Shown here: piece by piece, positions 1 to 64,000 of the stretch | Position numbering within the stretch: position 1 is the first letter of the stretch | How the letters are laid out: each line of letters opens with the position of its first letter | Assembly: GCF_900100655.1 (NCBI RefSeq) | Contig: NZ_FNCE01000010.1 | Location: 1 to 64,000 of the forward strand | Length of the DNA stretch: 64,000 bases | DNA from: Limimonas halophila | GTDB lineage: Bacteria; Pseudomonadota; Alphaproteobacteria; Kiloniellales; Rhodovibrionaceae | Direction of reading: 5' to 3' | Program-made: the position numbers and the translations under genes | Notes under the pieces: generated by a model | Seen by the model: only the letters and a program-made list of their open reading frames with translations | Databases searched by the model: none | Told to the model about the DNA's origin: nothing

Positions 1-101
1 GTCCCGAGCATGCAAGAACAATGGGACGCGGTCACCGCGTCCCGAGCATGCAAGAACAATGGGACGCGGCGACCGTGTCCCGCCGATCCAACAAGAACAA
101 T
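1..101 (+). repeat. Tandem 38-bp hairpin array, cut by the window edge
   Basis: Two near-identical 38-bp units run from 1 to 38 and 39 to 76, and a decayed third begins at 77, keeping the 10-mer CAAGAACAAT at 92-101. The junction of units 1 and 2 forms a perfect inverted repeat, GGGACGCGG at 23-31 and CCGCGTCCC at 35-43 with a 3-base loop. The next unit repeats this at 61-81 with one change that still allows a G-U pair in RNA. The window opens inside a unit, so the array probably continues to the left. It lies just upstream of the dehydrogenase operon start at 133. Confidence 0.8.
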
Positions 102-6500: not shown

Positions 6501-6934
6501 TCCGTGTCCTTCCCGGCGTCCGCCGGAGACGCGGCGGTGGTGCCCGCGCGGCCCGTTGCGGTGTTGTCGGCCCGGGCGTGCGCCGTTCGGCGATTGAGCT
6601 TGCGGACGGCGACGCGCACGTCGTTCAACAGGTCCGGGTACGCGCGGTCCAGCGTGGCCTTGCGCCCGATAACGACGTAGTCCGTGCCGGGCGCGCCTTC
6701 ACGCGGCAACACCTCGCGCGCCGCGGCCCGGAGCCTGCGGCGCGCGCGATTCCGCTGCACGGCCTTGCCGACCTTGCGCGAAACGGTGATGCCCAGGCGC
6801 GCGACATCGTCGGCGTCGACACGCGACTCGCGCGGAAGCGCCTGCACCACGACTCCCGGCATGACCTTTTTATATCGCCCGCGGGCGATACGCAGGAACT
6901 CGGGCCGTTTGGTGAGCCGGCCGAGGCGCGGCAT
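6497..6934 (-). CDS. rnpA: Ribonuclease P protein component
   Basis: RnpA is the protein cofactor of RNase P, which removes 5' leaders from tRNA precursors. The 145-aa sequence contains the basic RNA-binding motif around [10 protein letters not shown] near residue 65, preceded by the strand [11 protein letters not shown]. About 25 C-terminal residues form an Ala/Thr-rich tail beyond the family core. It lies 12 bases after rpmH and shares its promoter. Confidence 0.95.
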
Positions 6935-59821: not shown

Positions 59822-60574
59822 ATGATTCTGACCTGTCCCCAATGCGGTTCTCAATTCCGGGTGGCGGCTGAGAAGCTCGGCCTGTACGGGCGGACCGTGC
59901 GCTGTTCGCGCTGCAAGCACAGCTGGCACGCCACGCCGGACGACGACGAGTCCGAGGAGCTGGAGCTGAGCCCGGACGGCGAGCCCAATCAGACGGGCGA
60001 GGGCACAGCGGCCGCCGAAGGTAACGACGGGGCGGGCGAAGCGGCCTCGCCCCACGCCTTCGACGAGGATCTGGCCGAGTTCCGCGCCGCCCACCGCCGG
60101 GCCATGCGCGCGGCCAACCCGGAGCCGGACGCGGGTCGGCGCTTCCCGCTTGGCTGGCTGGTGTTCGCCGCCGTCGTGCTCGCCATCGTCGCGGGCGGGT
60201 GGTTCGGCCGCCAGCAGGTCGTCGCCTACGTGCCCCAGACGGCGGCGCTCTACGATCTGGCCGGCGTGCCCGTGAACAGCGTTGCGCCGGGGCTGAAGCT
60301 GCGCGACGTCACGCGCCGCCGGCAGCTGGTGAACGACACCAACCAGCTCGTGCTGGAAGGCCGCATCGTGAACAGCGGCGACCGGGCGCAAAGCGTTCCC
60401 CCGATCCGGGCCACGCTCTACAATCAGGCCGGGGAGCGCCTGACGGCGTGGCGGTTCCGTGCCGAGGCATCGCAGTTGGCGCCGGGGGCGGAGACGACCT
60501 TCAGCTCGCGCCGCCCCGATCCCCCGAAAGAAGCACGCGAACTGTCCCTGACCTTCGTCGCGTCGTCGTCCTGA
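59822..60574 (+). CDS. MJ0042-type zinc-ribbon/DUF3426 membrane protein
   Basis: The 250-aa protein has an N-terminal zinc ribbon with Cys5, Cys8, Cys28 and Cys31 (LTCPQCGSQF and VRCSRCKHSW), an acidic linker, one transmembrane helix (LGWLVFAAVVLAIVAGGWFG, about 139-158), and a C-terminal DUF3426 beta domain (LVLEGRIVNSGDRAQSVPPIRATLYN, split). The beta domain should be periplasmic. Function is unknown; it is usually beside ftsEX. Confidence 0.9.
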   Translation: MILTCPQCGSQFRVAAEKLGLYGRTVRCSRCKHSWHATPDDDESEELELSPDGEPNQTGEGTAAAEGNDGAGEAASPHAFDEDLAEFRAAHRRAMRAANPEPDAGRRFPLGWLVFAAVVLAIVAGGWFGRQQVVAYVPQTAALYDLAGVPVNSVAPGLKLRDVTRRRQLVNDTNQLVLEGRIVNSGDRAQSVPPIRATLYNQAGERLTAWRFRAEASQLAPGAETTFSSRRPDPPKEARELSLTFVASSS

Positions 60575-60643
60575 CTTGTGATAAGGTTTTCCGCCGAAAT
60601 CGGCTCGGTCGGGGTGTGACCGGGCGCCACGACGGGGCGGGCC

Positions 60644-61063
60644 ATGGCGGACGCTGAAACCTCGGAAAGTGCCCATGCGGCGGTGGGCGGCGCGGCGCAA
60701 CGCGTTCTCCTGGTCGACGACGACACGGCCGTGCGCACCTTCGCCGCGCGCGCCCTGGCCAACCGCGGCTACGCGGTGACCGCCGCGGCCAACGGGGAAG
60801 AGGCGCTGCGGCTGCTGGACGACGGCGCCGGCGCCGAGATCGTCGTCACCGACATCGTCATGCCGGGCATGGACGGGCTGGCGCTGGCCCGCACCCTGCG
60901 CCAGCGCCAGCCCGGCCTGCCGGTGATCCTGATGACGGGCTACGCCGAGGCCGCGCAGCGCAGCGAACTGGAAGCCGCCCCGGCACTGACGCTGCTCACC
61001 AAGCCCTTCCGGCTGCACACGCTGTGCGACAGCGTCGCCGCGCGGCTGGGCGATCCGGCGTGA
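60644..61063 (+). CDS. Stand-alone response regulator receiver domain
   Basis: The 139-aa protein is one receiver domain. It has acidic pocket DDD at 25-27, phospho-acceptor Asp70 in VVTDIVMPGMDG and Lys120 in LLTKPF; the first ~20 residues are a nonconserved extension. No output domain is attached, so it acts by protein contacts like CheY or CpdR. Any link to the orphan kinases in this window is unknown. Confidence 0.9.
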   Translation: MADAETSESAHAAVGGAAQRVLLVDDDTAVRTFAARALANRGYAVTAAANGEEALRLLDDGAGAEIVVTDIVMPGMDGLALARTLRQRQPGLPVILMTGYAEAAQRSELEAAPALTLLTKPFRLHTLCDSVAARLGDPA

Positions 61064-61084
61064 TCCGGGGCGCCGGGGCGGCGG

Positions 61085-61939
61085 TCACGCCGCGCCGTGC
61101 AGTGCCTGGAGCAGTTCCGGATACTGCGGTTCCTCGTCGGGCGTGACGACGCCGTGGCGGATGAAGAAGTCGATCATCACCACGGAAACGTTGAACTTGA
61201 AGGCGTCGCTGTCGCGCACGCGCGCCAGGGCATCCGCCACGTCCATCAGCTCGAAGCGCACGATCTCGCCGTCGCGGCACGCGGGCGTGAAATCGGCCGG
61301 CACATCCAGGTCGTAGATGAAGAGGGTGTCGTCGCGCAGTCCGCTCTCGGCCTCGCAGACGTAGCTGAGCGCGCCGACCGGTGTGGCCTGGCGCGCCAGC
61401 TCGGCCGGCATGGCGGCTTCCTCGTCGGCCTCGCGCACCACGGTGTCGTGCGCGCTGTCGCCGTGGGCCATGCCGCCGGCGACGAGGTGGTCCAGCTTGC
61501 CGGGGGCGACGCGCTTGTCGGCGGCGCGGGTGCCCACCCAGATCGCCAGGCCGTCCGGCCGGCGCACGAAGCCGTTCAGGTGAACGCCGTAGGACTTCAC
61601 GCCGAACAGCGGCACCACGCCCCGGTCCAGGCGCAGGCGGGCGGGCGTCGCCCAGGTTTCCGAAACCCCGTAGGCCTCGCCCCGCGGCGTGGGCGCGTCG
61701 CCGCGCGCGGCCAGGGTTTCCGCCACGTCGTGAACGGCGCGCGAGCGTGCGTCCACGTCCGCCAGGCGCGGGGAGAGCGTCACCGCCGCCGCGTCCACCC
61801 GGAAAACGTCGGGAAAGTCGGCGAGCGCGCGGGCCGTGGCGTGGCGCACGCGCCCCACACGGTGGCCGTCCACCACGAAGGGGCGGAAGGCATCCGGGTC
61901 CCAGGTGCGGACGGCGGCGATGCGGTCGAAGAAGCTCAC
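61085..61939 (-). CDS. NUDIX hydrolase with N-terminal DUF4743 domain
   Basis: The 284-aa protein has an N-terminal DUF4743-like domain (residues 1-110) and a NUDIX domain with the core GGMAHGDSAHDTVVREADEEA, where the conserved Gly after the Glu pair is Ala. This organisation matches thiamin pyrophosphokinase-related NUDIX proteins as I recall them. The likely reaction is pyrophosphate or phosphate release from a nucleotide or thiamine derivative. It overlaps the ACT-domain gene by four bases. Confidence 0.88.
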   Translation of the reverse strand: MSFFDRIAAVRTWDPDAFRPFVVDGHRVGRVRHATARALADFPDVFRVDAAAVTLSPRLADVDARSRAVHDVAETLAARGDAPTPRGEAYGVSETWATPARLRLDRGVVPLFGVKSYGVHLNGFVRRPDGLAIWVGTRAADKRVAPGKLDHLVAGGMAHGDSAHDTVVREADEEAAMPAELARQATPVGALSYVCEAESGLRDDTLFIYDLDVPADFTPACRDGEIVRFELMDVADALARVRDSDAFKFNVSVVMIDFFIRHGVVTPDEEPQYPELLQALHGAA

Positions 61940-62253
61940 GCGAAGTCCTTGTCCGAGGTGAGCACGGCCTCCACGCCCCAGATCTGCCGCAGCAGCCGGG
62001 CCAGGAAGGCGCTTTCGTGTTGGCTCAGGTCGGCCACCTGCACGTCGATGGCCAGCTCGTCGCGCTCCGGCCCCATGCGGTCGGCGTGCCAGCGCTCGGG
62101 GGTGAGGCTGCGCTTGGCAAAGACTTCCAGCACGCGCGGCATCAGGCCGGGATCGGCGCAGGCGCGGATGGCGAAGCAGGTGACGCGGTGGGGATGGGGC
62201 GCGGATGCGGTCGCTTGGGACGGCGCGGCGGCGCCGGACGGATCAGCACGCAT
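61936..62253 (-). CDS. ACT-domain-like small protein
   Basis: The 105-aa protein begins with about 22 Ala/Pro-rich residues, then an ACT-like betaalphabeta pattern (TCFAIRACADPGLMPRVLEVF, then ERDELAIDVQVADL and a second helix FLARLLRQIWG). It resembles the small regulatory subunit domain of acetolactate synthase or similar amino acid sensors, but no partner enzyme is adjacent. GCAGGAG precedes ATG 62253. It heads a pair with the NUDIX gene. Confidence 0.65.
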   Translation of the reverse strand: MRADPSGAAAPSQATASAPHPHRVTCFAIRACADPGLMPRVLEVFAKRSLTPERWHADRMGPERDELAIDVQVADLSQHESAFLARLLRQIWGVEAVLTSDKDFA

Positions 62254-62489
62254 GGGAAACTCCTGCGCGGCGATGGCGGATCGGGATCAGACGCACTGCA
62301 TACCCGGTGCCCATGCGGGCACCGGGCCCGTAATTCGCTCATCGCGGCTGCGCAGGACGGTGCGTGTCATGACAGGCCGAACGGTAGGAAGCCCTCGGGG
62401 AAGGGTCAAGGCGGCGGGCCGGATCATCCCGGCCCAATGCACGTCCCGGCATTCTCCACGGCGCTGTCCCCAAGGGGCTCCACCGCTTC

Positions 62490-62642
62490 TGGGGATAATC
62501 CTACCCCGTTCGAGGGCGAGGCTGCCACTACCAGGTTATCCCGAAGGTGATCCACAGGGCCGTCCCCGCGATCTGGGGACGGAAATTCATCCCCAACGCT
62601 ATCCCCAGGGTGATCCGCAGTGCTGTCCCCGCGATCTGGGGA
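62490..62642. repeat. 63-bp tandem repeat bearing six DnaA-box-like 9-mers (candidate origin or DnaA-binding locus)
   Basis: A 63-bp unit at 62535-62597 is repeated from 62598 to 62642, where the similarity stops. Six 9-mers resemble the DnaA box TTATCCACA: TTATCCCCA (minus strand, 62490-62498), TTATCCCGA (62536-62544), TGATCCACA (62548-62556), TCATCCCCA (62587-62595), CTATCCCCA (62599-62607) and TGATCCGCA (62611-62619). TGATCCACA is the G-box of the Caulobacter origin as I recall it. No AT-rich unwinding stretch is obvious. Confidence 0.55.
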
Positions 62643-62671
62643 AAACCGCGTTTGGCGGCGGACGCGGGGCG

Positions 62672-62712
62672 TCCACACACGAACGCGCCGCCGGGCGGCT
62701 TCCCGGCGGCGC
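62672..62712 (-). terminator. Terminator-like stem after yceI
   Basis: GCGCCGCCGGG (62685-62695) and CCCGGCGGCGC (62702-62712) form an 11-bp stem 34 bases past the YceI stop. On the minus strand the tail GTTCGTGTGTGG is only partly T-rich. Confidence 0.45.
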
Positions 62713-62745
62713 GCGGTGTACGGTCCAGGTCTGTGGAGGGCGCCC

Positions 62746-63381
62746 TTACTCGGGCAGCTTGTCCAGCTGGTCCTGGGCGAAGCCCTCGATCTCGATGAGC
62801 AGCTCCATCTCGTCGCCGATCGCGGGGGTGTACTTGGAAACGCCGAAATCCGAGCGCTCGATGGTGCCGCGTGCGGAGATGCCGGCGGTGAGGATGCCGT
62901 TGTACTGGGGGAGCGGGTGCTCGCCCAGCTTGTTCAGCGTCACATCCAGCGTCACCGGCTTCGTGGTCCCGTGCAGCGTCAGCTCGCCCGTGATCTCGGC
63001 GGTGTTTTCGCCCGTCTTCTCCACATCCGTCGAGGTGAAGGTGATCTCCGGGTATTCCTTCACGTTGAGGAAGTCGGGGCTGCGGATGTGCTCGTCGCGT
63101 TTGTCGTGCTGGGTGTCCACGCTGTCGGCCTGAATGGTGACGTTCACGGCCGCGTTGTCCGGGTTCTCCTTGTCGATCGTGAAGGTGCCGGAGAAGTCGG
63201 TGAACTCGCCGATCGCGTCCGAATAGCCGAAGTGCGTGATCATGAAGGCGATGTCGGAATGCGCCTCGTCGATCTTGAAGGTCTGCGGCTCGGCCTGGGC
63301 GGCCGTTGCACCGGCCAGCGCGGCGGTCATGCCGGCCGCGGCGGCGAGCGTGCGTCCGGTTCGCGTGATCGGGTTGCGCAT
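62746..63381 (-). CDS. YceI-family periplasmic protein
   Basis: The 211-aa protein has a signal peptide (ATAAQAE) and a YceI lipocalin-like barrel: FKIDEAHSDIAFMITHFGY, then GEFTDFSGTFTID, FTSTDVEKTG and GTIERSDFGVSKYTPAIGDEM. YceI proteins bind polyisoprenoid or other lipid-like ligands. It is acidic. A second yceI gene lies upstream on the same strand, so the pair may be one operon. Confidence 0.93.
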   Translation of the reverse strand: MRNPITRTGRTLAAAAGMTAALAGATAAQAEPQTFKIDEAHSDIAFMITHFGYSDAIGEFTDFSGTFTIDKENPDNAAVNVTIQADSVDTQHDKRDEHIRSPDFLNVKEYPEITFTSTDVEKTGENTAEITGELTLHGTTKPVTLDVTLNKLGEHPLPQYNGILTAGISARGTIERSDFGVSKYTPAIGDEMELLIEIEGFAQDQLDKLPE

Positions 63382-63415
63382 GGCGTTGTGGCTCCCGTTG
63401 TGTTGGTGATGGCTT

Positions 63416-63997
63416 TCAGTCTCCGGCCGGGCGTGTCGCCACGATCCGGATTTCGATGTCGACCTCGTTGGGCACCATGCCGGTGTTGCGCCACACGCCC
63501 TGGCCGATGCCCCAGCGCAGGCGCTTCACCGTCACCGTGCCCTCGGCGACCGCCTTCAGCGTGGCGTCCCGGCGCGTGACCGCCAGGGTGAAGGGCAGGT
63601 CCACCGGGTGCGTCTGCCCGCGCATCGTCAGCTCGCCGTGGGCGACGTAGCGCTTGCCGTCCTTGTGGGTGAAGTCGTCGGCGACGAAGCGCGCGGTGGG
63701 ATGCTTCTCGGCGTGAAAGAGTTGTTCGGACGTGATCGTGTCGTCGCGCTCCGCCGAGCCCGCGTCGACACTGGCAATCTCGATTTCCACGTCCACGCGC
63801 CCGGCGTCCGGGGCGTCGCGGTCGAACGCGATGCTGGCGTCGAACGCGGTGAACTCGCCGGGCACGGGCGAGCCGGACTGCTCGGCCACGAAGCCCACGC
63901 GGCTTGCCTCGGGATCGACGTCCCAGCTCGGCGCGTCGGCGGCGTGCGCGGGCGGCGCGGCGAACAGCAGCGCGGCGGCGGTCAGGCGCTTCATCAT
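63416..63997 (-). CDS. YceI-family exported protein (second copy)
   Basis: The 193-aa protein starts at ATG 63997 or 63994, at the very edge of the window. Signal peptide ends PPAHAA. The YceI pattern is SWDVDPEASRVGFVAEQSGS, GEFTAFDASIAFD, DDFTHKDGKRYVAHGELTMRG and GIGQGVWRNTGMVPNEV. It differs clearly from the neighbour at 62746, so the two are diverged paralogues. Lipid-like ligand binding is expected. Upstream promoter lies outside the window. Confidence 0.9.
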   Translation of the reverse strand: MMKRLTAAALLFAAPPAHAADAPSWDVDPEASRVGFVAEQSGSPVPGEFTAFDASIAFDRDAPDAGRVDVEIEIASVDAGSAERDDTITSEQLFHAEKHPTARFVADDFTHKDGKRYVAHGELTMRGQTHPVDLPFTLAVTRRDATLKAVAEGTVTVKRLRWGIGQGVWRNTGMVPNEVDIEIRIVATRPAGD

Positions 63998-64000
63998 GGG

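Follow-up and report, generated by a model that had tools for sequence, protein, structure and literature searches.

A conserved, phased array of DnaA-box-like sequences away from the replication origin of Limimonas halophila, a candidate DnaA-control locus

The DnaA-control sites DARS1 and DARS2 of E. coli have equal box spacing, with box I in the opposed orientation (PMC5742627), and their head-to-head box pair is functionally essential (PMC10380432). In the genome of E. coli MG1655, the DARS1 and DARS2 cores each have a pair of direct boxes spaced by 12 bp, with an opposed box 14 bp further on (>12 >14 <), and no further triple of this kind is present in the E. coli stretches examined. The DARS2 core is conserved among E. 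coli-related gammaproteobacteria (PMC4245941), and a review notes DARS-like sequences for many species of proteobacteria (PMC10380432). The recharging or storage of DnaA in alphaproteobacteria is poorly known, and the limited set of open-access literature searched contained no description of a DARS site from an alphaproteobacterium. The DnaA boxes described in Caulobacter include the G-box, TGATCCACA, and the W-box, TCCCCA (PMC4285127), and the Caulobacter origin Cori is located between hemE and COG1806 (PMC1914354).

The window analysed here comprises positions 1 to 64,000 of contig C10 (93,771 bp) from the 3.04 Mb draft genome of L. halophila. An intergenic region between yceI and an ACT-like gene holds an array of three tandem modules of about 47 bp, which share the box order A> B> C> D< and whose box starts are 12, 12 and 14 bp apart (Table 1). 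Both bordering genes and a NUDIX (DUF4743) gene, which forms a pair with the ACT-like gene, are encoded on the minus strand. The ACT label was read from the sequence by eye; Pfam and PDB searches with this gene gave no significant match. Four relatives of the same family (Rhodovibrionaceae) were available for comparison: a fragmented MAG (G001), a one-contig genome of 4.18 Mb (G002), Ferruginivarius sediminum (G003) and Rhodovibrio sodomensis (G004). A 38-bp tandem repeat with 2.2 copies, with which the contig begins (window positions 1-82), may reflect the assembly break.

Table 1. Coordinates of the array, its boxes and the neighbouring features in the window (boxes are listed with start position and strand)
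Feature	Position	Strand	Basis or remark
Intergenic region holding the array	62254..62745 (492 bp)	.	ORFs, Pfam, orthologous intergenic regions
ACT-like gene	61936..62253	-	borders the intergenic region; ORF list
yceI	62746..63381	-	borders the intergenic region; ORF list and Pfam
Sigma70-type promoter of the ACT-NUDIX operon	62381..62409	-	TTGACC 62404-62409, 17-bp spacer, TACCGT 62381-62386; five-genome alignment
Module M0	62452..62498	+	27/47 identical to R. sodomensis module
M0 boxes			A TTCTCCACG 62452 (+); B CTGTCCCCA 62464 (+); C GGCTCCACC 62476 (+); D TTATCCCCA 62490 (-)
B>12 C>14 D< unit of M0 (35 nt)	62464..62498	+	E. coli DARS-core order and spacing
Module M1	62536..62582	+	box 9-mers, repeat comparison, spacing
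M1 boxes			A TTATCCCGA 62536 (+); B TGATCCACA 62548 (+, Caulobacter G-box sequence); C CCGTCCCCG 62560 (+); D CCGTCCCCA 62574 (-)
B>12 C>14 D< unit of M1	62548..62582		equivalent of M0 unit
Additional box TCATCCCCA	62587..62595	+	between M1 and M2
Module M2	62599..62645	+	38/47 identical to M1; A-B part matches F. sediminum and R. sodomensis element
M2 boxes			A CTATCCCCA 62599 (+); B TGATCCGCA 62611 (+); C CTGTCCCCG 62623 (+); D TTTTCCCCA 62637 (-)
B>12 C>14 D< unit of M2	62611..62645		equivalent of M0 unit

The first-pass annotation had drawn attention to six 9-mers with up to two mismatches to TTATCCACA within 130 bp. All six were recovered at 62490-62619, a span of exactly 130 bp, and a seventh 9-mer of this quality starts at 62637. 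Likewise, the 9-mer TGATCCACA, present at 62548-62556, had correctly been recognized as the Caulobacter G-box sequence (PMC4285127). The reported 63-bp tandem repeat exists in the form of two 43-nt copies, which are 88% identical; 63 bp, however, is the spacing from start to start, and a TRF run left this repeat pair of the array unreported. The more diverged third module M0 and the regular 12/12/14 spacing go beyond that earlier description. M0 is identical to M1 and M2 at 25-27 of 47 positions; the positions of the C boxes at 62560 and 62623 were taken from a half-site scan. M1 and M2 are copies of each other, and M0 is probably a homologue of both, so that the array provides one or two independent instances of the module, and its boxes do not represent independent events because the repeat copies are duplicates.

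The segment 62452-62645 reached a weighted box score of 18 and is the densest DnaA-box cluster found in this genome; the next-best score, among about 486 kb scanned, was 11 at hemE. The score and spacing scans cover these 486 kb in selected stretches; pattern searches over the whole genome complement them. Shuffling the locus 2000 times gave a mean box score of 1.2-1.7 and a maximum of 7-8, a score of 18 never being reached, and 60 shuffles of the entire contig reached at most 7. The hexamer TCCCCA is found six times in 221 bp, compared to an expectation of 0.3. The assumption that this clustering is unlikely to arise by chance is borne out by the locus shuffles, and box scoring beyond the locus, which had been suggested as a check, placed the array above everything else in the about 486 kb.

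Replication initiation had been proposed as one role of the locus, with a secondary-replicon origin as an alternative, and dense DnaA boxes within intergenic DNA would indeed be expected of an origin. However, the single hemE gene of this genome is located at C7:66909, beside a gene read from the sequence as COG1806/DUF299, and the intergenic region between them harbors a cluster of seven boxes upstream of hemE (C7 about 66641-66803) with parS-like sites around it. All parS-like sites (up to two mismatches) are on C7 at 65.9-75.1 kb, within 10 kb of this cluster, and throughout the order, boxes of the TTATCCCC type are again found upstream of hemE. The hemE box cluster, which is conserved order-wide, is the likely oriC of L. 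halophila. The GC-skew comparison recommended by the first-pass annotation also speaks against initiation at the array: the sampled skew of the one-contig relative switches sign within the interval 280-520 kb, which contains hemE (374 kb), and a second time near 2.4-2.6 Mb, roughly opposite the first switch. No switch is seen at its counterpart of the array locus, which lies at 620-624 kb (NUDIX gene at 619-620 kb), and the skew of C10 is weak, mostly positive on both sides of the cluster and without a switch. Two features that the annotation itself had listed as missing are indeed absent: no 30-bp stretch exceeds 50% AT, and the origin-type neighbours are found elsewhere, dnaA on C25 and hemE and parS on C7. 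A secondary-replicon origin is unlikely, since the gene order ftsX, ftsE, zinc-ribbon gene, response regulator, NUDIX and ACT is common to C10 and the single-contig relative, by which C10 can be regarded as chromosomal. Thus, the array shares the box classes TGATCCACA and TCCCCA with an alphaproteobacterial oriC such as Caulobacter Cori, but it differs by lacking a hemE/COG1806 neighbour, parS, an AT-rich stretch and a skew switch. An ordinary origin can be excluded here as far as sequence permits, and an origin of either kind, chromosomal or of a secondary replicon, would be highly improbable. Common ancestry of the array with the hemE origin was also considered and was not convincing, the several shared 9-11-mers being mostly the boxes themselves, in addition to GCCACTACCA. 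The latter is present in the array (62524-62533) and in the hemE origin region (stretch L070, about 6821-6830), possibly as a shared motif or by chance.

Comparison with the four family relatives, another check that had been suggested, revealed what by sequence is an orthologous element in three of them, namely in the one-contig relative, F. sediminum and R. sodomensis; no element was found in the fragmented MAG. A strict A-B pattern, which was derived from the sites of L. halophila, F. sediminum and R. sodomensis and matches these by construction, occurs at one place in each of the three genomes, always in the orthologous intergenic region, and has no match in the remaining genomes searched. 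The R. sodomensis module is identical at 27 of 47 positions to M0 as well as to M2, and its boxes A, B and D have the spacing of those in L. halophila. The orthologue of the one-contig relative, at 624.25 kb, is nearly identical to that of R. sodomensis around A and B and is located about 4 kb from the ACT gene and the ACT-NUDIX promoter, with other genes between. In all three relatives, A is followed by B at 12 bp and then, at 14 bp, by an opposed half-box ending in CACA; the opposed box of F. sediminum has two mismatches, and boxes of this kind make up 0.2% of positions. The register of the opposed box differs, with A-B-I in the relatives and B-C-D in L. halophila, and the elements of the relatives comprise only two to four boxes. 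Separately, TTATCCACA and further boxes, one of them opposed shortly after, are found near the syntenic region of the one-contig relative (C1, about 613.8 kb).

With a TCCNC half-site criterion, B>12 C>14 D< of all three modules corresponds in order and spacing to the DARS1 and DARS2 cores. No other (12, 14) unit is present in the about 486 kb scanned (0.09 expected), and when the same half-sites were placed at random, one or more such units appeared in 0.5% of trials and two or more in 0.008%, figures that have to be read in light of the fact that the comparison with DARS was chosen after the 12/14 spacing had been seen. If up to two mismatches per box are allowed instead, all three modules drop out, and 2 Mb of related DNA show no enrichment of the 12,14 class relative to other spacings (10 versus a mean of 7.9). 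A loose triple-box pattern is common in the relatives, partly due to unrelated repeats, and was excluded as evidence. Like the DARS cores, the array is intergenic, lies away from oriC and has two direct boxes followed by an opposed last one, with starts 12 and 14 bp apart. It differs from them by its W/G-like boxes, the degenerate middle box, the extra box A in front, the threefold tandem arrangement and its alphaproteobacterial host. Box C, which corresponds to DARS box II, deviates from the DnaA consensus by 4-5 mismatches (box D by 1-4), and membership of the array in the DARS class is not established for this reason. CtrA, IHF and GANTC sites were looked for in the array locus and none was found; the IHF consensus, and with it a DARS2-type IHF site, is absent at the array even if two mismatches are allowed, a further difference from DARS, although IHF/Fis sites are not required for DARS1.

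The presence, density, phasing, conservation and non-origin location of the array are evident from the sequence, and the DnaA protein of this genome has normal ATPase and DNA-binding domains. Of the two functions originally proposed, replication initiation has to be given up, while a DnaA-binding locus has good support from box class, density, phasing and conservation; binding of DnaA itself is suggested by the class of the boxes. We infer that the array is a non-origin DnaA-control locus of some kind, with a probability of about 0.75. Its most likely roles are DnaA reactivation, which we consider possible at somewhat less than even odds, and titration, an alternative already raised in the first-pass annotation, which we rate as only slightly less likely than reactivation. 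In a DARS-type mechanism, DnaA would bind the phased boxes of each module, and DnaA molecules on the direct boxes would meet an oppositely oriented DnaA on box D. Contact between the opposed molecules would then result in the release of ADP, thereby recharging DnaA for the next initiation as at E. coli DARS; the step of ADP release is suggested by the match in order and spacing. In its most specific form, namely a DnaA-reactivating site that is conserved in the family (Rhodovibrio, Ferruginivarius) and was amplified in L. halophila to three tandem cores with weak G-/W-type boxes instead of consensus boxes, the proposal is doubtful. Nevertheless, a conserved non-origin DnaA array with DARS spacing is a concrete and easily tested candidate.

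A titration site, datA-like in effect or similar to the clusters of B. subtilis and Streptomyces, would absorb DnaA once replicated and thereby delay re-initiation, and the opposed box would then merely serve packing. In B. subtilis and Streptomyces, DnaA-box clusters are described to repress initiation (PMC5742627), and for E. coli, an accumulation of boxes in the vicinity of oriC is known (PMC12371093). The array resembles such sites as a non-origin box cluster, the densest found in the genome, and the element is origin-proximal in the sole relative with a measurable distance, where it lies about 250 kb, or 6% of the chromosome, from the hemE origin and would therefore double early. However, titration needs neither a fixed spacing nor an opposed box, both of which recur in each module, the two to four boxes of the relatives' elements are few for this purpose, and an IHF site of the datA type is absent. 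Even with titration as its sole role, the array would represent a mapped site of DnaA control in this family. Quite unlikely is the explanation that the array is bound by another protein recognizing TCCCC-type half-sites, or that it is a functionless repeat amplified by recombination. In many of its boxes, TCCCCA or TCCCCG takes the place of TCCACA, the C and D boxes of M1 depart strongly from the DnaA consensus, and duplication alone accounts for part of the density. On the other hand, similar boxes make up the hemE origin cluster in this genome and across the order, and three further genomes retain the boxes and spacing of the element despite a changed spacer sequence.

Even less probable is a DnaA-responsive control of the ACT-NUDIX promoter or a neighbouring transcript, in which DnaA bound upstream of TTGACC-N17-TACCGT would activate or repress transcription. 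Caulobacter DnaA is a transcription factor (PMC3193534), boxes are also present upstream of the probable nrdJ of L. halophila and of gcrA in other Rhodospirillales, and the array shares with DnaA-regulated promoters of the Caulobacter DnaA regulon and E. coli nrd the position of its boxes upstream of a conserved promoter, the nearest box starting 43 bp from the -35 hexamer. In the relatives, however, box-promoter distance is variable. The TTGACC-N17 promoter is kept in all five genomes with or without boxes, those of the fragmented MAG and the one-contig relative having none adjacent to it, and in the latter the element is found about 4 kb away. This distance argues against simple promoter control and, together with the conservation of the promoter irrespective of boxes, indicates that the array is independent of the ACT-NUDIX promoter, which is probably not a part of it.

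Further box-bearing sites were noticed during the analysis. Five DnaA-like boxes lie upstream of a gene assigned by eye to a vitamin-B12-type ribonucleotide reductase (C4:170582-170643), and an intergenic triple of DnaA-like boxes in the same direction is found at C1:214845-214883. In other Rhodospirillales (L168, L169, L171, L188, L192, L198 and L200), an exact TTATCCACA precedes a GcrA-like gene, recognized by eye, upstream of ACT-NUDIX. Because of this arrangement, it was considered that the array might be a remnant of a gcrA promoter; the idea was dropped, as gcrA of L. halophila is located on C3 without boxes. An Rfam search of positions 60000-64000 gave no match up to E = 1, and this also applies to a stem-loop in the 5' leader of ACT-NUDIX (62303-62326, minus-strand sense). 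Its CGAATTA and CCCGG...CCGGG columns are nearly invariant in the five family genomes, and it is possible that it represents an unreported leader RNA.
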